Virus record (IMG/VR): IMGVR_UViG_3300037010_000365
Location: 17,962-81,961 of that record
From: a virus
Strand: one strand, 5' to 3'
DNA: 64,000 nt
Positions 8,144-39,198 of the stretch are shown here, piece after piece; positions within the stretch are counted from its first letter, which is position 1, and every line of letters begins with the position of its first letter. The notes under the pieces are model-generated. The model made no database searches and was not told the DNA's origin. It saw only the letters and a list, made by a program, of their open reading frames with translations. The position numbers and the translations under genes are program-made.

Positions 8144-9046
8144 TTGAATTTATTAGTAGAAAAGCTTAAAGAGTTTGGTGTTGCTGAAACTGATGTTGCT
8201 TTAGTTGAGGCTGCGTTTAAAGCGCAGGTTGATGAAGCAGCTGAAACTCGTGCACAAGAGTTGCTTGAGACAGAACGCCAAACAATGAAAGAGGGAGTTG
8301 ATTCTGTTGTTTCAGAATTTGCTGCTAAATATGAAACGTTAAAAGAATCTATTGATACTCAGATTGATGCTAAGCTTAGCGCTTTAGTTAAAACTGAACG
8401 TGAAGTTACTGTAAACGCTATCGATGCATTTGTCGAAGATCACACAGCAAAGCTTAGCGAATATGCTGCTACCGTTGTTGAATCAGTGGAAGCTAAGTAC
8501 AAAGAAGCATTTGAATCAGAAGCAGCTGCAATCATCGAAAGCTTTACTGAAAAGCTTGATTCTTACTCTGGTTATGTTACTGAATCAATTAAGACTAAAG
8601 CTCAGTCACAGTCAGATTTGAAGGTTGCAATGGCTGAAGAATTGCTTGAATCAATTCGCAGCATTTATGCAGAATACAATGTAACTATGCCTGAATCAGT
8701 TGACTTTACTGCTCAGTTTGAAGATCACTTGAAAGAATCTGAAAAACTTGAAACAGAAAATAAGCGATTGAAAGCTAAATTAACTGAAAAGTCTAAAGCT
8801 GAAGTTATTACTCAAGTTACTGAAGGCATGACGTTAATACAGAAAGAAGATTTTACTTCTTTAACTGAATCAGTTCTTTTTGTATCTGAAGAATTGTACA
8901 CAAAACGTTTACATGAAATGAAGGATCGCTTCTTATCAGGTAAGCAAACAGCGCAAGAAGTCTCAAAACCAGCCGCAACTGCTATTGTAACTGAAGGCAC
9001 TACTGTTCCAAAAGTTGATGTATCGAAGTACCTCGGTCGTCGTTAA
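8144..9046 (+). CDS. 22: Prohead scaffold core protein gp22
   Basis: 300 residues starting at TTG 8144 behind a strong Shine-Dalgarno sequence (AAGGAGAG, 8131-8138). It is almost entirely helical, rich in Glu, Lys and Ala, with coiled-coil character, as expected of the major scaffold. The C terminus DVSKYLGRR parallels the T4 gp22 end (YAKVASRF). Many L-x-E sites are present, consistent with digestion by gp21. An upstream in-frame ATG with a better ribosome site was not seen, so TTG is the likely start. Confidence 0.9.
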   Translation: MNLLVEKLKEFGVAETDVALVEAAFKAQVDEAAETRAQELLETERQTMKEGVDSVVSEFAAKYETLKESIDTQIDAKLSALVKTEREVTVNAIDAFVEDHTAKLSEYAATVVESVEAKYKEAFESEAAAIIESFTEKLDSYSGYVTESIKTKAQSQSDLKVAMAEELLESIRSIYAEYNVTMPESVDFTAQFEDHLKESEKLETENKRLKAKLTEKSKAEVITQVTEGMTLIQKEDFTSLTESVLFVSEELYTKRLHEMKDRFLSGKQTAQEVSKPAATAIVTEGTTVPKVDVSKYLGRR

Positions 9047-9056
9047 TTTTAAAAAC

Positions 9057-10448: not shown

Positions 10449-11021
10449 TTAAGCAACTAATAATTTAAGTACTTCGCTATCGCTAATACCTGTTAATAAT
10501 TCTTTTAATGCATTATGTTGTCTAAACGTGTTAATTTGAAATTCATATGATTTATCTATTTCATCCAGTGTAGTTAAGCAGTTAGATTTGCTTAACGATA
10601 ATAACAGGTCATTATAAAGAATTAACCCTATTCTGTTGAAATTTATCGGTAGTACACAGCTTTGTTCAAGTGACCAAAATCCGCTCTTGTAATCAGTTTT
10701 GTGTTCTAATGAAACACCAAATAAAAATTGTATTGTTTCATCGTTTAGCTGTATGAAGTATGGAACTCTAACTAATTTAATATCATTAACTGTGCAGTAT
10801 TCGGATAACAATGTGTCTCGCAATTGTGTTTTTGCCGATGTGTAGTGATGATACCCGTCAAATTCAATCAGAGTATCTATTTTACCATCAACTATCACAG
10901 CGTAATCAATTATCATCCGTTTATTCTTAAACTTAATAGAATATTGAGACTCAATAACGCATTGGCGGTATAGTTTAATAAGAATAAGCGCTAACGATTC
11001 CTCAGTAAGGTAATCTTTCAT
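10449..11021 (-). CDS. Free-standing homing-type endonuclease (Vsr/EDxHD-like fold)
   Basis: 190 residues and the only confident - strand gene here. Central motif: a hydrophobic strand, IEFDGYHHY, then RDTLLSEYCTVNDIKLVRVPYFIQL. This is the D-G-x-x-H ... R-D ... K ... L-x-R-x-P-Y pattern of Vsr-like (PD-D/EXK-related) phage endonucleases found free-standing or inside split-intein breaks. It is inserted antisense between the gp23 terminator and uvsY, with its own AT-rich upstream region (TATAAT on the - strand near 11075) and a GAGGATGG ribosome site. It probably spreads by cutting gp23-region DNA of competing phages. Activity is inferred. Confidence 0.65.
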   Translation of the reverse strand: MKDYLTEESLALILIKLYRQCVIESQYSIKFKNKRMIIDYAVIVDGKIDTLIEFDGYHHYTSAKTQLRDTLLSEYCTVNDIKLVRVPYFIQLNDETIQFLFGVSLEHKTDYKSGFWSLEQSCVLPINFNRIGLILYNDLLLSLSKSNCLTTLDEIDKSYEFQINTFRQHNALKELLTGISDSEVLKLLVA

Positions 11022-13200: not shown

Positions 13201-15120
13201 ATGGCATATTTAGATTCTCCTGGTATTGCTATAAAAGAAGTTGATAAATCTTCTTATGTTGGCGGTAACAGTTCTACTACTGGTGGTTATGCTGGTGCGT
13301 TTGGTTGGGGTCCTGTATTAGTACCTACCATCATATCAAATCAAACAGATTTGATTCGCACATTTGGTGGCCCTGTTACTGGTTACAATCAGCAAGATTT
13401 TTACTCTGTTGCTTACTTTTTAAAGTATTCTAATGCTTGTTATGTTACTCGTGTAACAGGACCAGACGCTAAGAACGCGGTAGCAATGAAAGATAATTCA
13501 ACAACTGTTGGTAAAGAAGTTGTGATTAACTCATCTCAAGCTTTTGAGACCACTTTCACTAACTCAACTAGCGTTGACTTTGCTGCTAGATACCCTGGCT
13601 CTTTAGGTAATGGTATTGAAATTATCATCATTGATTCAATTTCATTTACATCATCCAAATACAAGAACTTGTTCACAGGTGCACCTACTGGTACTGAACT
13701 TCACGTATTATTATTGAAGAATGGTTCTGTTCTTGAAAAGTACGAATATTTGAATGCTTTACCTGGTACTAAAAAATCAGATGGCACAGTTGCATACTAT
13801 GTTGAAGTAATTAATACCCAATCTAATTACATTTACGTCTTGAAAGAAACAGGCGCTTGTGATTGCATACTGTCTGGCGGTACGCTAGGTGCAACTTTTG
13901 CTACATATAAAATATCATCTGTTACATATGCGGCAAGTATTTACCCCGGTATTGGTAATAACACTGTAATTTACTTAGTTGATAGTGCAAACTACGCTGC
14001 TTTGAGTACTGATGTTAAGTCACATTTGGTTGGCGCGCCTGCAGTTGATCAGTGCGCTGTGGTTGTTTATACTAATGGTTTCTTCACTGAAGTATTTGAA
14101 GCTTTGGACAAGTTATCTACATCTGCTAACTATTACGTAACCCAGTTTAACGCTCAATCATCTACAGCGCATTTAATGTCACCTGTTGACTTCACAGTAG
14201 CTGCTCAAACAGTTATGACATTAACTGGCGCAGTTGGTGATGTTCCAGTTGGTGATTCAGTTGTTAACGGTTATAACATTATGGCTGATGCTGATACTTA
14301 TGATATTAGCTTGATGTTTGCTGGATCAAATACTACAGTGTGTCAAACTGCTGTTGTTTCTATTGCAGAATCTCGCAAGTTTACAGTTGGTTTTGTCAGC
14401 CCTCAGTTTAGTTCATGTAAGTTAGGCGGTTCTGCTGCTTTAACTGCAGTGTTAGCTGATCGTCAAGCAATTTACTCTTCAAGTTATGGATTCATGGATT
14501 CTAACTGGGGTAAGGTTTACGATCCAATCAATAAGAACTCTTTCTGGATGGCTATGAATCCTGTATCTGCTGGTCTTCAAGCACAGGTTGAAAATCAGCG
14601 TGAAGCTTGGTATGTTGGTATGGGTACCACTTATGGTAGAATCTCAGGCATTCAAGCGTTAGCATGGGAACAGAGTCAAGTTATTCGTGATGCTTTGTAC
14701 AAGTCTCAAATCAATCCATTATGCACGTTTAAAAACGAAGGCATTTTGTTATTTGGTTCTAAGACATTACAAGTTAAGCCTAGCGCATTTGATCGTTTGA
14801 ATGTACGTCGTTTATTCATTGTAATTGAAAAAGCTGTTGGTAAAACTGCTAGAGCTCTTATTGGTGAACTTAACACTGATCAAACTCAGCGTTCTGTAGT
14901 TAACTCGATTACACCGTTTATGCGTGATATCAAAGCTAAGCAAGGTTGTTATGATTTTGCTATTGTTTGTGATGCCACGAATAACACGCCACAAGTTATT
15001 AACACTAATGGTATTGCAATTGGTTTGTACATCAAGCCTACTAAAAACATTGACTTTGTTTATGTTGATATGGTTGCAGTTAGCTCTGGTGTTTCTTTCC
15101 AAGAGATCATCGGCAAATAA
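13201..15120 (+). CDS. 18: Contractile tail sheath protein gp18
   Basis: 639 residues (T4 gp18 is 659). The N terminus (YLDSPGIAIKEVDKSSYVG, then GAFGWGP) is the sheath hallmark. The C-terminal domain has NRLFIVIEKAVGKTARALIGE-like sequence (RLNVRRLFIVIEKAV) and ends in a domain with NIDFVYVDMVAVSSGVSF. The gp19-gp18 order is reversed relative to T4 (18-19-20). The gene ends before a bidirectional terminator. Confidence 0.95.
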   Translation: MAYLDSPGIAIKEVDKSSYVGGNSSTTGGYAGAFGWGPVLVPTIISNQTDLIRTFGGPVTGYNQQDFYSVAYFLKYSNACYVTRVTGPDAKNAVAMKDNSTTVGKEVVINSSQAFETTFTNSTSVDFAARYPGSLGNGIEIIIIDSISFTSSKYKNLFTGAPTGTELHVLLLKNGSVLEKYEYLNALPGTKKSDGTVAYYVEVINTQSNYIYVLKETGACDCILSGGTLGATFATYKISSVTYAASIYPGIGNNTVIYLVDSANYAALSTDVKSHLVGAPAVDQCAVVVYTNGFFTEVFEALDKLSTSANYYVTQFNAQSSTAHLMSPVDFTVAAQTVMTLTGAVGDVPVGDSVVNGYNIMADADTYDISLMFAGSNTTVCQTAVVSIAESRKFTVGFVSPQFSSCKLGGSAALTAVLADRQAIYSSSYGFMDSNWGKVYDPINKNSFWMAMNPVSAGLQAQVENQREAWYVGMGTTYGRISGIQALAWEQSQVIRDALYKSQINPLCTFKNEGILLFGSKTLQVKPSAFDRLNVRRLFIVIEKAVGKTARALIGELNTDQTQRSVVNSITPFMRDIKAKQGCYDFAIVCDATNNTPQVINTNGIAIGLYIKPTKNIDFVYVDMVAVSSGVSFQEIIGK

Positions 15121-15137
15121 ATCTATATTCGATTATG

Positions 15138-15167
15138 AAAAATGGGAGCATACGCTCCCATTTTTGT
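15138..15167. terminator. Bidirectional terminator after gp18
   Basis: AAAATGGGAGC-ATAC-GCTCCCATTTT: long perfect stem with A-run before and T-run after, so it can stop rightward gp18 transcription and leftward transcription from the - strand promoters near 16 kb. Confidence 0.9.
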
Positions 15168-15213
15168 TATTCGTTAACTAATCTATAGTGTTATAATTAG
15201 CTCTTGTGTATCT

Positions 15214-15291
15214 AGAAGTTCACTGGTTTAATTCAAAAAGAAAAGATATAGATTTTATCATATATTTTGTTTGGATTAAACCTGAGTGATT
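15214..15291. repeat. Long hairpin repeat, copy 1
   Basis: About 78 bp: AGAAGTTCAC, then GGTTTAAT ... ATTAAACC closing a stem around AAAAAGAAAAGATATAGATT, ending CCTGAGTGATT. A near-identical direct copy lies at 17713-17791 and an inverted related copy at 37679-37747. Function unknown. It marks the left end of the non-coding block. Confidence 0.8.
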
Positions 15292-15292
15292 C

Positions 15293-15998
15293 AGATAATT
15301 TTAACAGTTCGGCCATTATATACCGGTGTGGCCTTGCGAGAAAGTTTCAATGATGTTCTGTACATTGTCGGATTACGAATACATCTACTCCCTTTTCTTT
15401 CCGCTGGATAATGAACCGGTTATTAATTAAAGTAATAATAAACAGATAACGCTGTTGAAAATTAATCTAATTAATAATTCGGTATTAATCCAGTTACCTC
15501 TAGTAAAAGGTAATCGCAGAAGCGAAGGAAATACTCAGTTTCTTTTAGTGATTAAACACTACCAGTTCATTCCCGTAGAACTGTCTTTCCTGATAACTTT
15601 TTAAGGCGTTATCACCAAATCAATATTAATTTCATGTAAGTCCATTACACTACTCATAACATCAACAGTAAAGAATACGTATACTCAATACATGAAACTA
15701 CGACTATCTTAGGTATTCGTTTCATTGGGCTGTCTACCCGAACCATCCTGTCTTACTAGGATATCCATCGTCGCTGGGTGCAAAGGGGAGCAGTGCCAGC
15801 ATTTTATTTTTAAGTTTTGGTCTACAATAGAAGTATGTTTAATTTAGATAAAGGGATATAGAATCCTGCATTATCAGAGTTCTAGACGTATCATAGCATA
15901 GTCAGATAGTAACTCAACCGTATGGATTGGTGTTTAACGGTTCCTAATTTGCATTTAACTTGGGTATGTTGTTTGTATTTTCTATTTATAGAATTCTA
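15293..15998 (-). ncRNA. Candidate large structured non-coding RNA (leftward)
   Basis: About 700 bp with no credible reading frame on either strand but an unbroken series of perfect short hairpins. Examples: 15311-15333 (GGCCA/TGGCC), 15494-15513 (TTACCT/AGGTAA), 15563-15583 (CAGTTC/GAACTG), 15591-15614 (TGATAAC/GTTATCA), 15692-15725 (ATGAAAC/GTTTCAT) and 15773-15800 (GCTGG/CCAGC). Two early-type promoters on the - strand (15999-16028, 16120-16149) read into it, and the bidirectional terminator at 15138-15167 closes it. I do not recognise a known family. Size and density of structure recall large ornate phage RNAs such as GOLLD/ROOL. Confidence 0.55.
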
Positions 15999-16028
15999 TT
16001 TATAACACATATCAGTCTAAAAGTAAAC
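15999..16028 (-). promoter_or_regulatory. Early-type promoter, - strand, proximal
   Basis: On the - strand: GTTTAC(TTTT), 18-nt spacer, TATAAA. Same form as the + strand early promoters. It lies in a roughly 70-bp repeat shared with 16103-16175. Confidence 0.65.
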
Positions 16029-16119
16029 AACTAAATGATAAAAAGTTAAAATAAACTTGTTGTTCGGTTGACACAACTATAGAGTAATAAATAATTAATG
16101 AATAGAATCTTATTTATAC

Positions 16120-16149
16120 ATTATAACATGAATTAGACTAAAAGTAAAC
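16120..16149 (-). promoter_or_regulatory. Early-type promoter, - strand, distal
   Basis: On the - strand: GTTTAC(TTTT), 18-nt spacer, TATAAT, a full match to the phage's early consensus. It ends 28 bp before the uvsW start and fires away from it into the non-coding block. Confidence 0.7.
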
Positions 16150-16177
16150 AACTAAATTATAAAAAGTTAAAAATAAA

Positions 16178-17692
16178 ATGCCAGACATCATAATACACTA
16201 CTATGACTCAACCTACATAAAGCTGGAGTTTCCTAATCGGTATTCCATAGCAGATGAGGTGCATCAGAACTTTAGTTTTTTCGCAGAAGGATACAAGTTT
16301 CATCCAAAGTACAAGATGAAAGTATGGGACGGAAAGATAAAGTTGTTTGATAAAGGTAGATCTCTGTTGCCGTATGGATTGCTTAGCGATCTAGTTTCAT
16401 TTGCTGCTAAACAAAATTATACGGTTAAAGTACCTAAAGAATTAACACTACAGTCTAAAGTAACAGTAGAAGTTCTTGAAGAATTCTGTAGGTCAATTCT
16501 AAAGCTACCATTTGAGCCTAGAGATTATCAGTTAGAAGCAGCAGTACAGTGTATCAGAAATGGAAGACGTTTAGTTGTAAGTCCTACCGGGTCTGGTAAG
16601 AGTGTGATTCAGTATATCATTATTCAATATCTAACATTAGTTGAAGGTTTTGATCGAATATTGCTTACTGTACCTACGACAGGGTTAGTAACTCAGATCT
16701 ATAATGATTTTAAAGACTATGCTCAGAACGTAGAATTTAATGAAGCTGATTATCTGACAATTCCAAACAAACAGAATATTAAGTTTAAAGCTGACGCTAA
16801 AGTTATTATATCTACCTGGCAATCAATACAAAAACAAGATATCGAATATTTTGAAAATTTTGATGTACTGATGTGTGATGAAGTGCATACTATGGCAGCA
16901 GATGTTAGTCAACAAATATCGTTAAAATCAAAAAACGTATCTGTAAAATTAGGTATGACAGCAACTTTGTCTAATACTAAGTTGGGTGAAATGCCGTTGA
17001 TTGGTCTTTTTGGACCTATCTTCAAAACAACAACAACTGCAGACTTGATAGGACAAGGAATGTTAGCTAAGATAGAAATCAAAGCTATCCAGATGTCATT
17101 TCCTAATATATCTAATAGAGCTAGAATTATTGACTATGCTGAAGAGATCAGTATATTAACAAATTCAGTAGAACGAACCGAGTTTATTGCTAAATTAGCT
17201 GGAAAGTTAAAAGGAAATACATTAGTACTGTTTAATCATATTGAACATGGTACGTCTATATTCAATAACATTAAAAAGCTATATCCTGAAAAGAAAGTAT
17301 TCTATATAGCCGGATCAAGTTCAAAACAAGAAAGAGAAGATGTTAGAGTAGTTGCAGAAAAAAACGATGACGTGATAATTGTAGCTGGATATGCTGTATT
17401 CAGTACTGGTGTTAACATTAAAAATCTACATAACTTAATGTTTGCAGCACCAAGCAAGTCTATGATTAGAATATTACAGTCAATCGGTCGAGTATTAAGA
17501 TTACATAATGGTAAAGACTGCGCTGTTGTATATGACTTGTACGACATATTTGGCGATGATCAAGCTAAAGCTAAAAACTATGGGTTTAAACACTTTATTG
17601 AAAGATACAAAATTTATAATGATGTAAAAATGGAATGCTCTATCGTAGAAGGACCTAAGTTTATTACAACTGATCCAGGTATTAGCGACTAG
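16178..17692 (+). CDS. uvsW: RNA-DNA and DNA helicase UvsW
   Basis: 504 residues (T4 UvsW is 503). An SF2 helicase that unwinds R-loops and branched recombination or fork structures, switching replication from origin- to recombination-dependent mode. Motifs: N-terminal substrate domain with FHPKYKMKVWDGKIKLFD, Walker A SPTGSGKS (about 136-143), DEVH box (about 233-236), TATL motif III, FSTGVNIKNLHN and SIGRVLR motif VI. No late promoter is visible. A weak TTGACA at 16068 may serve it. Confidence 0.94.
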   Translation: MPDIIIHYYDSTYIKLEFPNRYSIADEVHQNFSFFAEGYKFHPKYKMKVWDGKIKLFDKGRSLLPYGLLSDLVSFAAKQNYTVKVPKELTLQSKVTVEVLEEFCRSILKLPFEPRDYQLEAAVQCIRNGRRLVVSPTGSGKSVIQYIIIQYLTLVEGFDRILLTVPTTGLVTQIYNDFKDYAQNVEFNEADYLTIPNKQNIKFKADAKVIISTWQSIQKQDIEYFENFDVLMCDEVHTMAADVSQQISLKSKNVSVKLGMTATLSNTKLGEMPLIGLFGPIFKTTTTADLIGQGMLAKIEIKAIQMSFPNISNRARIIDYAEEISILTNSVERTEFIAKLAGKLKGNTLVLFNHIEHGTSIFNNIKKLYPEKKVFYIAGSSSKQEREDVRVVAEKNDDVIIVAGYAVFSTGVNIKNLHNLMFAAPSKSMIRILQSIGRVLRLHNGKDCAVVYDLYDIFGDDQAKAKNYGFKHFIERYKIYNDVKMECSIVEGPKFITTDPGISD

Positions 17693-17712: not shown

Positions 17713-17791
17713 AGAAGTTCACAGGTTTAATCCAAAAAGAAAAGATATAGATTTTATCATCTAGTGTGATTATAATTAAACCTGAGTGATT
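17713..17791. repeat. Long hairpin repeat, copy 2
   Basis: Direct copy of the element at 15214-15291. GGTTTAATCC and ATTAAACC pair around the same AAAAAGAAAAGATATAGATT core, with the same CCTGAGTGATT end. It lies between uvsW and the gene 55 promoter. Confidence 0.8.
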
Positions 17792-17811
17792 TTAAAAAAT
17801 AATGAAAACAT

Positions 17812-17841
17812 GTTTACTTTTATATAAAACTATGTTATAAT
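17812..17841 (+). promoter_or_regulatory. Early promoter for gene 55 operon
   Basis: GTTTACTTT, 18-nt spacer, TATAAT, followed by gene 55, 47 and 46 in the same direction. Confidence 0.75.
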
Positions 17842-17872
17842 AGAATAATTACACATGTAAGGAATAGATTTT

Positions 17873-18439
17873 ATGATTGAAATTACCGCGAAACCGTATG
17901 ATGTTAGATTCGCAAAGCGTAAAGCTAGAAATAAAGATGCAGCCGATTATATCAATAATTCTTTGTTGTACGAAGAAATGGTAAGATGGAAGGAATCTGG
18001 AGAAGAGAAAGTATCTGCTGAACTTGGTAGAATGTTTTTATTATTAGCAAAAAAAGTAACATCACATCGCCATTTTTCTAGATATCCAATTGAATTAAAA
18101 GAAGAAATGGTAAACGAAAGCGTTATAACCTTATTAAAAGGCGCTAGCAAGTTTAATCTTGAATTTAAAAATCCATTTGCATATTTTACACAATTCTGTT
18201 TCAACGCAAATATTGGTGTTATTAAAAAGTACTACGCTGAGAATGCTGGGACAATTCAATACTTTTTAGCAAACACACAAGAAATTGATGTCACTGATGG
18301 TCATACATTAGCAGTTATTGAGCAAGCAAAGATGTATTCAGATTCTAGAGCAAATTCTAGCAAAAAAACAAAATCAAATAAAGCAGTTAGACCAACATTA
18401 TTTGATTTTGATGAATTCGTAAAAGAACTTGTTGATTAA
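17873..18439 (+). CDS. 55: Late sigma factor gp55
   Basis: 188 residues (T4 gp55 is 185). This sigma-70-like subunit directs RNA polymerase to TATAAATA late promoters. ELKEEMVNESVITLLKGASKFNLEFKNPFAYFTQFCFNANIGVIKKYY (about 82-129) matches the region 2-like core of gp55 (NPFAYFT is diagnostic). The C terminus RPTLFDFDEFVKELVD should carry the gp45 clamp-binding motif known for T4 gp55, and its PTLF recurs at the ends of two other proteins here. Expressed from an early-type promoter. Confidence 0.93.
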   Translation: MIEITAKPYDVRFAKRKARNKDAADYINNSLLYEEMVRWKESGEEKVSAELGRMFLLLAKKVTSHRHFSRYPIELKEEMVNESVITLLKGASKFNLEFKNPFAYFTQFCFNANIGVIKKYYAENAGTIQYFLANTQEIDVTDGHTLAVIEQAKMYSDSRANSSKKTKSNKAVRPTLFDFDEFVKELVD

Positions 18440-32142: not shown

Positions 32143-32244
32143 GTACGTTTCAATTCATATCGAAAGAATTGTCTATGATAGGAAATATTGAAAAATACTT
32201 CTTTACTTTTCTGATGTGTTAGTTTATAATGAACTAAATAAAGG
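32143..32244 (+). repeat. Direct repeat A, copy 2
   Basis: Near-identical to 31304-31406, with TTTACTTTT and TATAAT (32225-32230). It continues into GTTGAGGATCTCAAC and a T-arm-like TTGGTTCGAATCC, a segment repeated again at 32870-32940. Confidence 0.75.
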
Positions 32245-33670: not shown

Positions 33671-33689
33671 ATTTATTTTTCATAAAACG

Positions 33690-33719
33690 TTTTACTTTTA
33701 TCACGACTTAGGTTATAAT
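33690..33719 (+). promoter_or_regulatory. Early promoter
   Basis: TTTTACTTT, 18-nt spacer, TATAAT. Its leader (ACAAGTTGATGGAAAC ... ACTACTAATCCTGAT) is repeated after the promoter at 35712, and the ACTACTAATCCTGA part also before the Ro60-like gene. Confidence 0.7.
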
Positions 33720-33778
33720 AATTACAAGTTGATGGAAACCTAAAATTTTTAACTACTAATCCTGATGAGGAAACCAAA

Positions 33779-34123
33779 ATGAATACATGTCTTGTAAAAT
33801 CTGGCAGCTTGTGTGTATCAACTACAGCTATCATTGAAGTGAAAATGTCTCATATCCATGGTAAGAGTAAGTTCCATCGCGAAAATGCAGCAAAACATGG
33901 ACCAAAGAAACTCCGCAGATCGTTTGTTAAGGATGAAGGTGATATTCCAACTGCGTGTACCTTATTAGTTAATGGCACTCAGCAAGTTTCTGGTTGGGTA
34001 TCTCCTGAAGCAGTAGTCCTACCCGTCGTTAACACCCGTGGTATGGGGTATGCTCATCGTAATGCAAAGCGTTATCGTGTAGGCAAGTTATTAGCTAAAA
34101 AGTATTCTTGGGTGTTGATATGA
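33779..34123 (+). CDS. Unknown basic protein
   Basis: 114 residues, not recognised. Basic (KSKFHRENAAKHGPKKLRRSF) in the middle, with a C-terminal AHRNAKRYRVGKLLAKKY. A GATGAGGAAACC Shine-Dalgarno region precedes the ATG. First gene of an ATGA-coupled run 33779-35069 expressed from an early promoter, so perhaps a host-takeover protein. The basic surface could bind nucleic acid (inference). Confidence 0.65.
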   Translation: MNTCLVKSGSLCVSTTAIIEVKMSHIHGKSKFHRENAAKHGPKKLRRSFVKDEGDIPTACTLLVNGTQQVSGWVSPEAVVLPVVNTRGMGYAHRNAKRYRVGKLLAKKYSWVLI

Positions 34124-35685: not shown

Positions 35686-35711
35686 AGCAAGTAAAATATT
35701 TTCATAAATCC

Positions 35712-35741
35712 ATTTACTTTTCTCCTGACTTTAGTTATAAT
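35712..35741 (+). promoter_or_regulatory. Early promoter
   Basis: ATTTACTTT, 18-nt spacer, TATAAT. The leader is nearly identical to that after 33719 up to the start codon. Confidence 0.72.
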
Positions 35742-35798
35742 AATTACAAGTTGATGGAAACATTAAATTTAACTACTAATCCTGATAAGGAAACCAAA

Positions 35799-36326
35799 AT
35801 GAAAATCGAAAATCCTATCATCGCAGCCTTAAACGCTAATCTTGAATCGGTGTTGCATGTTGTGGATACCAACTACAGATCTTATCTACAAACGATTATA
35901 TATCGTGTTGCTGAGTGCACTGGTAATATCGATAAAGCGTTTCCATCTCCTTCAGCAAATTTAAGTCATAATGAATATCACGCTAAATCTGTTCTGCGTC
36001 ATTTAGCTAGAGAAATTCACATTTTACCTCCAGTTTATCTGTCAGACTTACATTTACTTTCTGAGGGAGTTGATCAAAATGGGGTAGACTTCTTGGTTAA
36101 ACGTCATCAGAAAGATACGATAGAAAGATACGAACAATATGTCAATAAATTGATCAATAAAGTTGGCGATTGTGACTCTGTTACTGTCGCTGGTGACCTA
36201 TGGAACTATAGTATTTTAACTATCACCAATGGCGCTGTTGTAGAACGTTGGAAAACTTCCATGATTCTAAATGTTAGTAAAAATGGTAAAGTCTTCAACC
36301 AATTCCCAACTCGTAAGATTATGTGA
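35799..36326 (+). CDS. Unknown early protein
   Basis: 175 residues from ATG 35799 (GATAAGGAAACC precedes it). Longer readings from 35751 use leader sequence shared with the 33779 gene and are unlikely. Helical N part, then VTVAGDLWNYSILTITNGAVVERW with beta character. Not recognised. Confidence 0.62.
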   Translation: MKIENPIIAALNANLESVLHVVDTNYRSYLQTIIYRVAECTGNIDKAFPSPSANLSHNEYHAKSVLRHLAREIHILPPVYLSDLHLLSEGVDQNGVDFLVKRHQKDTIERYEQYVNKLINKVGDCDSVTVAGDLWNYSILTITNGAVVERWKTSMILNVSKNGKVFNQFPTRKIM

Positions 36327-37542: not shown

Positions 37543-37908
37543 TATAGCTGGAGTATTTGAAGCTATTTTAGACCGTGCAGTCAAGTACAAAGTACCAGAA
37601 GTAGACGTGTCTAAAGTTCTATTGATTTTAATCGATATGACTATTATCAGGATTATCATTACTAAATAACCAGCAATCCCGGCTTAATCCAATCAAATTA
37701 GATAATAGAATCTATATCTTTTCTTTTTTGGTTAAGCCAGAGTGCTAGAAATGAATTAAAATGTTGTTTATAATATTTCAATAATGTGATATTATGATTA
37801 TTAGAAGTTAAATCTTCTACATCGCAGTGATTTTACTGCTTAACCTTGTCCTAATCTCAGCATTAACCTGCCGAGCCAATGACAAAAAACTGAAATAAGG
37901 GAGACTAT
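37543..37908 (+). other. Intergenic region before ino1
   Basis: 366 bp. The first 120 bp look like a frameshifted continuation of the preceding gene. Then comes hairpin repeat copy 3 (37679-37747). A weak promoter-like GTTTATAAT/TATTAT near 37763-37795 follows, then an untranslated leader with AAGTTAAATCTTC and a ribosome site (AAGGGAGAC). Confidence 0.5.
37679..37747. repeat. Long hairpin repeat, copy 3 (inverted)
   Basis: CGGCTTAATCC ... GGTTAAGCC stem around AATCTATATCTTTTCTTTTTT, the reverse complement of the core in copies 1 and 2, with compensatory changes in the stem (GGCTTAA/TTAAGCC instead of GGTTTAA/TTAAACC). Stem conservation by compensation points to a structured RNA or DNA element. 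Confidence 0.75.
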
Positions 37909-39198
37909 ATGTCTAAAATTAAAGTAGCTATTGTAGGTGTTGGTAACTGTGCCAAATCATTAGTAGAAGGAATTCAATACTATAACGAAAATCCAAATGA
38001 TACTGTCGGATTAATGTATCCTGATATTGGCGGCTATAAATCTAGCGATATCGAATTTGTTGCTGGTTTTGACGTTGATATTCGTAAAGTTAATAAACCT
38101 CTAATTGAAGCTTTGCGAGCTAGTCCAAATTGTGCTATGGATCACGTTATTGAAATTACTGATAGCGAAATGACATCTTGTGTAACAAAGGGCGCCATGG
38201 TTTATTCAGGTCCAACCATGGATGGCGTTGCTCCATACATGCTAGACTTTCCAGAAGAAGTATCTTTTCGTATCGGCGCTATTCCAGCAGAACCATTCGA
38301 TCGAGTTGTCGAATTATTGAAATACCACAAAGTCGATGTAGTTATTAATTATCTACCAGTCGGGTCTGAAGAAGCTTCTAAGTTTTATATTGACGCAGCT
38401 ATTAAAGCAAAATGCCACGTTGTTAACTGTATTCCTACATTAATTTCAACAGCTGATACTATGGAATATGAACAAAAGTTTATTGATGCTGGGTTGACTA
38501 TTGTTGGTTCTGATATGCGTTCTGCTTGGGGTGCTAGCCGATTATCTGAAGTGCTACAGGGTGCTATGCTAGATGCTGGTCTGCTAGTAACACAACATAT
38601 CCAAATGAATATGGCAGCAGGCACTACGCAAGGTCAAGAAACCATTAGAACTGGCCGTACGGCAAACACTGATTTTTTAAACATGATTAGCAAGGATCGT
38701 TTACACAGCAAACATGTGTCGAAGGAAAATGTCTTGCGTGGCCAAAATTCCGTTCGAGACGTTGACACTGCTGGCATGACATTATATGCAGGTCCTTCGT
38801 TAACGGTTTTACAAAAGCCAGGTGGCCAATACGTTGGTTCAGATAATAAAATTGCTAATTTGGATCTAGTTGCTTACGGTTTCGGTGGAGCTCGATACGA
38901 ATTAACTGCACGATTATCTGTACAAGACAGTCCTAATTCTGGCGGTGTAGTTGTATCAGCTATTCGTTTCTGTAAAGTAGCTAGTGAAATGGGTATTGTT
39001 GGATTTTTACGTGGACCTAGCGCTTATACCCAAAAGACACCGCCATTACAGCTAAGCTCATCTGATTCAAAATTTGAATGTGACGCTTTGTCTCGTCGTG
39101 TGTTAACATCGTTAACAGAACCTCAACTTAAGATTAATAACCCAGTCGCAACGGATTTGCCATATACGTTCCAATCAAGTAAAACTGATTATGAATAA
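37909..39198 (+). CDS. ino1: myo-Inositol-1-phosphate synthase (Ino1)
   Basis: 429 residues. Converts glucose-6-phosphate to inositol-1-phosphate using NAD. The N terminus IKVAIVGVGNCAKSLVEGIQYY is the Rossmann start of the bacterial Ino1 family. Also VYSGPTMDGVAPYM, VDVVINYLPVGSEEASKFY, IVGSDMRSAWGAS and the C-terminal VQDSPNSGGVVVSAIRFCK with GPSAYTQKTPP. Full length for the bacterial/archaeal type. It stands at the head of a run of genes leading to hydroxymethyl-dCMP synthesis, so its product may feed a DNA or capsid modification. Strong ribosome site AAGGGAG. Confidence 0.88.
   Translation: MSKIKVAIVGVGNCAKSLVEGIQYYNENPNDTVGLMYPDIGGYKSSDIEFVAGFDVDIRKVNKPLIEALRASPNCAMDHVIEITDSEMTSCVTKGAMVYSGPTMDGVAPYMLDFPEEVSFRIGAIPAEPFDRVVELLKYHKVDVVINYLPVGSEEASKFYIDAAIKAKCHVVNCIPTLISTADTMEYEQKFIDAGLTIVGSDMRSAWGASRLSEVLQGAMLDAGLLVTQHIQMNMAAGTTQGQETIRTGRTANTDFLNMISKDRLHSKHVSKENVLRGQNSVRDVDTAGMTLYAGPSLTVLQKPGGQYVGSDNKIANLDLVAYGFGGARYELTARLSVQDSPNSGGVVVSAIRFCKVASEMGIVGFLRGPSAYTQKTPPLQLSSSDSKFECDALSRRVLTSLTEPQLKINNPVATDLPYTFQSSKTDYE

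Follow-up and report, generated by a model that had tools for sequence, protein, structure and literature searches.

The window analysed here is a stretch of 64,000 nt, corresponding to positions 17,962-81,961 of the IMG/VR record IMGVR_UViG_3300037010_000365 (G000; 81,961 bp). Its source is, to judge by the sequence, a T4-superfamily myovirus remote from isolates. The gene set comprises terminase, portal, major head protein, UvsY, tail tube, tail sheath, UvsW, a gp55-like late sigma factor, an SbcD-like gp47 and UvsX; best amino acid identities in the phage collection were 32% for the sheath and 40% for UvsW. It should be added that a lone minus-strand ORF with weak HNH/homing-endonuclease matches (10449-11021) separates the gene of the major head protein from uvsY, and that a phage-encoded myo-inositol-1-phosphate synthase-like protein (Pfam PF01658) is found on the plus strand at 37909-39198.

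The gp18 sheath gene ends at position 15120 and uvsW starts at 16178, both pointing right, with an interval of 1057 bp without a gene between them (15121-16177). An initial sequence-only reading had seen no convincing ORF in this block, and this was confirmed: over 996 bp, no ORF of at least 50 aa was present on either strand, and the minus strand has 17-24 stops per frame with a longest open run of 45 codons. With the tRNA island set aside, no other part of the window is free of ORFs over such a length as the block, the sole comparable gap being that of the tRNA cluster at 32.1-33.1 kb. The bidirectional terminator noted earlier proved to be strong, with a perfect stem usable both ways (Table 1), and is the predicted end of the leftward RNA and also of gp18 transcription. 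Counted from the inner promoters, the predicted RNA would be about 850 nt long; with the outer ones as its start, about 965 nt.

Two minus-strand early promoters within a duplicated unit had been proposed, and both are exact matches to the early motif. In its strict form this motif occurs 11 times in the 64-kb window, nine times on the plus and twice on the minus strand, against a mean of 0.017 in shuffled sequences, and we therefore regard it as real phage grammar; the two copies at the block are the only minus-strand ones in the window. The N18 spacing given earlier was wrong, the distance from GTTTACTTTT to the -10 hexamer being 14 nt and the -35/-10 spacer 17, and the duplication itself held while its length was reduced from 70 bp to 52 nt. 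Furthermore, the block carries minus-strand copies of the T4 late-promoter octamer TATAAATA, absent from the sequence-only reading. These three copies are the total for the minus strand of the window, all inside 136 bp (15983-16118) and interlaced with the early promoters; the chance of three random sites clustering in this manner is about 5e-6. On the plus strand, the octamer is found mostly ahead of structural genes. The gene of a gp55-type late sigma factor is located close by (Table 1). Since early promoters and TATAAATA octamers stand at one spot, leftward transcription of the block is predicted for the early as well as the late phase.

The richness in hairpins pointed out earlier is true, but it is weak evidence by itself, as other segments of the genome fold about equally well. 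The transcript body (818 nt) had a folding z of -4.85 against dinucleotide shuffles, compared with a mean of -1.44 (sd 1.67) for 40 control segments of the same window, four of which were at -4 or lower. The minus strand of the block folds better than the plus strand, and local z in 120-nt windows did not single out the block, the terminator excepted. As the fold energy is unexceptional for this genome, the case is made by a relative of the block and not by the counting of hairpins.

This relative was reached via a scan for a dispersed hairpin element and is located in L030, a contig of the record IMGVR_UViG_3300037010_000793 (G001). The copy (1355-2030, about 670 nt) has its promoter, core and terminator in the same order as the block, and shows a fold z of -4.6; in L039, the stretch containing L030, no ORF-free gap is larger than the one it occupies. 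Two other ORF-poor gaps of 600-700 bp in G001 (L039:3128-3828 and 8451-9051), each with an early-type promoter, are unrelated to the RNA core. The L030 copy lies on the strand opposite to its neighbours and adjoins a RuvC-like resolvase gene, in a gene context unlike that of the window. This bears on the reading of the block as a cis regulator or insulator of the gp18-uvsW junction, where antisense transcription and the terminator would separate expression and the RNA sequence itself would be inert. The placing of the elements would suit such a role, with the minus-strand promoters immediately ahead of the start of uvsW and the terminator immediately behind gp18; however, the same cassette is placed among different genes in L030 and the internal sequence is conserved, not the ends alone, and we consider this reading quite improbable.

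Table 1. Features of the gp18-uvsW block and of its relative in L030. Positions refer to the window unless L030 is named.
Feature	Position	Strand	Basis or remark
Predicted large noncoding RNA	15138-15990	-	No ORF; promoters and terminator at the ends; homologue at L030:1355-2030
Intrinsic terminator, bidirectional	15138-15165	both	12-bp stem, T/A tracts on either side
Dispersed 75-nt imperfect hairpin	15214-15291	-	In the 3' part of the predicted transcript
Second conserved block AGACAGTTCTACGGGAATGAACTG	15554-15586	-	91% over 34 nt at L030:1788-1821; inner 24 nt identical
Conserved core	15742-15908	-	75% identity over 170 nt to L030:1462-1635, E 2e-22
Late-promoter octamer TATAAATA, inner	15983-15990	-	Motif match
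Late-promoter octamer TATAAATA, middle	15997-16004	-	Motif match
Inner early promoter TTTACTTTT-N13-TTATAA	16000-16027	-	Motif match
Promoter unit, 52 nt, two copies	16000-16051 and 16121-16172	-	Direct repeat, 88% identical, 121 bp apart
Late-promoter octamer TATAAATA, outer	16111-16118	-	Motif match
Outer early promoter TTTACTTTT-N13-TTATAA	16121-16148	-	Same motif as the plus-strand early promoters of the phage
gp55-type late sigma factor gene	17873-18439		
Early promoter of the L030 copy	L030:1318-1346		
TATAAATA of the L030 copy	L030: about 1411		
Terminator-like GC hairpin of the L030 copy	L030:2010-2027		Aligns with the window terminator; weak T tract in sense direction

G001 has almost no protein content in common with the window. 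Its first positions (G001:1-936) match G000:3-938 in reverse with 91.6% identity, and its baseplate gp6 and gp32-like genes complement the set of the window; on the basis of this end overlap and of the complementary genes, we regard G001 as the other half of a sister phage genome. No tRNAs were found in the pieces of G001 examined. One RNA copy belongs to the record of the window and the other to G001, and these two contigs suggest that the phage lineage probably carries two paralogous RNA loci per genome. The paralogues would predate the divergence of the two phages, as their core is 75% identical and the overlap 91.6%. Alternatively, a single copy may have been relocated.

The consensus fold of the two copies reached -44.2 kcal/mol against -25.1 +/- 4.2 for column shuffles, of which none among 200 was as good. 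The consensus fold of the reverse strand was weaker (z -3.5), and the covariation term alone was within the range of column shuffles, with 20 of 200 as good. In the covariation analysis, proposed by the sequence-only reading and run here on the L030 homologue, all 68 consensus pairs were kept in both sequences, 10 of them via two-sided changes, a number as high in 1 of 500 partner shuffles and to be set against 0-3 such pairs in slid structures; the test is small, comprising two sequences and a consensus structure derived from the same alignment. As an example, a helix reads ATCCT-AGTAAGAC-AGGAT in one copy and ATCCC-AGTAAGAC-GGGAT in the other, and helix 10 contains three two-sided changes. 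An anti-Shine-Dalgarno role of the conserved loop GCTCCCCTTTG was considered and rejected, with virtually no complementary phage sites outside the locus itself.

The alignment of the two copies has gaps of 1, 2, 4 and 7 nt, among others; such lengths, not being multiples of three, do not fit coding. The homologue thus exhibits non-triplet gaps and compensatory changes in place of the coding conservation that the sequence-only reading had named as a sign against a noncoding RNA. A decayed protein gene, to which a long intergenic gap in a dense genome might point, is hardly credible in view of the stops in all frames, the non-triplet gaps, the intact promoters and terminator and the compensatory changes.

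GOLLD and ROOL exemplify the large RNAs of phages, being both abundant and elaborate; GOLLD has a conserved 3' domain and is frequent near or within tRNA islands, and ROOL and GOLLD form homo-oligomeric RNA cages. Both are phage-encoded, roughly 600-900 nt long, with many hairpins and no protein, their cellular role being unknown (PMC12286853). The predicted RNA of the block is similar to them in size, hairpins and lack of protein. The likeness to GOLLD and ROOL suggested earlier therefore holds for size, setting and anatomy, but it does not extend to any model match: Rfam cmscan of both copies at E up to 10 returned weak sub-threshold matches only, with no large-RNA class, and no homology to the Rfam families, including GOLLD, ROOL, OLE and group I/II introns, was detected in either copy. 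In contrast to GOLLD, moreover, the block is situated 16 kb away from the tRNAs at 32.3-36.8 kb.

Searches of the phage database gave chance-level matches only. A covariance model of the core (R1), for which the window and L030 copies served as training sequences (both 200+ bits), gave no convincing match in 17 further records, among them that of ICP1, the best other score being 19 bits. Pattern scans with the conserved core retrieved L030 only, plus chance matches, one of them in a bacterial MAG, and the pattern GAAACTTTCTCGCAAG had 18 matches in the viral contig collection, all in unrelated sequence. With gp18 as bait no relatives were found; UvsW and MCP baits yielded distant relatives (38-47% aa), none with a copy of the RNA.

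We regard the RNA of ICP1 and the lncRNAs of kayviruses as the nearest precedents, and they indicate that such blocks can be heavily transcribed. The lytic Vibrio phage ICP1 has an ORF-less gap of 1 kb between gp139 and gp140 with a noncoding RNA of ~800 nt, which is its most abundant phage transcript (PMC7567579). The block is alike in the size of its predicted RNA, in its ORF-less 1-kb gap and in not lying by tRNAs; there was no sequence similarity between the two RNAs (blastn word 7) and no R1 match in the whole ICP1 record. In kayviruses, lncRNA1 and lncRNA2 are two highly transcribed noncoding regions of 525-570 bp in one genome, lncRNA2 being expressed from an early promoter (PMC7698491). 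Unlike the RNA of the block, they adjoin tRNA genes, and searches of the phage collection gave no match beyond chance. The RNA described here very probably represents a new family among the large structured RNAs of phages, one that resembles GOLLD and ROOL solely in anatomy.

The main rival explanation is that of a replication origin, where the leftward transcript would prime DNA synthesis as an R-loop, as at oriF/ori(uvsY) of T4, UvsW would later remove it, and the L030 copy would act as a further origin. Transcripts from promoters are used at the origins of T4, with oriE needing an early promoter and a late promoter suggested for oriC, and UvsW unwinds the R-loops of oriF and oriG (PMC3016281). 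The block is comparable with the oriF and oriE transcripts in having an early or middle promoter near recombination genes and a link with UvsW (PMC3016281), since it abuts uvsW and its second copy abuts the resolvase gene. However, according to the review no sequence motif is common to all T4 origins (PMC3016281), whereas a structured 170-nt core and compensated helices are kept here, and a late promoter would keep the R-loop forming when UvsW appears. Besides, the strand or skew shift seen near three T4 origins was not found at the block: both flanking genes have the same orientation, and the cumulative GC skew continues to climb across 15-16 kb. We hold an origin to be unlikely.

The best reading remains the one put forward from the sequence at the outset, namely that gp18 and uvsW are separated by a leftward noncoding RNA gene, driven by promoters and closed by a terminator; it is supported by the L030 homologue and the compensatory changes. 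The attributes of large structured phage ncRNAs in the broad sense are present, namely an own promoter and terminator, no ORF and a structure conserved in a homologue. In our judgement it is highly likely that the block encodes a large structured noncoding RNA, made early and late and acting in trans as RNA; the action in trans is suggested by the second copy, which has the same promoters, core and terminator and adjoins unrelated genes. Directly after infection, host-type RNA polymerase would transcribe the block leftward from the two early promoters, and later the phage gp55-directed polymerase would do so from the TATAAATA promoters at the same place. Transcription would stop at the terminator, and the RNA would fold into a string of hairpins and work as such.

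As to function, our tentative guess, which could well prove mistaken, is a high-copy RNA that acts in trans as a scaffold, cage or decoy and is comparable in kind to GOLLD and ROOL. Rather doubtful, though conceivable, is a new class of large ornate RNA represented in each genome by two paralogues that have diverged; stacked promoters of the early and late types would have it made throughout infection, as the T4-superfamily counterpart of GOLLD and ROOL, possibly with hetero-oligomers of the two copies. If the noncoding RNA gene is real, an unrelated new family in the T4 superfamily would show that large phage RNAs arose more than once; its promoters would tie the RNA, apparently in two copies per genome, to the early as well as the late programme, and a large RNA would be available in a group of phages with some of the most highly developed genetics.

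The dispersed hairpin found in the block has further intergenic copies at 17713-17791, 37681-37740, G001:11055-11133 and G001:75462-75540 (83-96% identical), with a T-A to C-G change in the stem of the 37681 copy. As it lies beyond the terminator in L030, it is probably a separate element, and it has the look of a promoter/stem-loop cassette of the T4 type or of a hairpin that binds protein. Mobile cassettes of this kind were reportedly described in T4-type phages by Arbiol and colleagues in 2010 and are said to be short. They resemble the hairpin plus early promoter at 17713-17846, but are too short to explain a conserved block of 850 nt. Nevertheless, the whole block might be conceived as a pile of such cassettes with no RNA function of its own, considering that its promoter unit is duplicated and that both contigs contain scattered copies of the hairpin and of 100-bp repeats with promoters. 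Against this, the conserved core is confined to the two large blocks and is neither a promoter nor a simple stem-loop, and the dispersed hairpin falls outside the transcript in L030; we give this explanation very little credence.

It should also be added that the gp55 gene has an early promoter upstream, and that the hairpin copy at 17713 stands immediately before this promoter. The early-promoter repeats of ~100 bp are located at 33683-33782, 35705-35802 and G001:50927-51025, upstream of different genes and 91-93% identical between the contigs, and identical early promoters TTTACTTTTCTGATGTGTTAGTTTATAATGAAC occur at 32202 and 32839 in the tRNA cluster.
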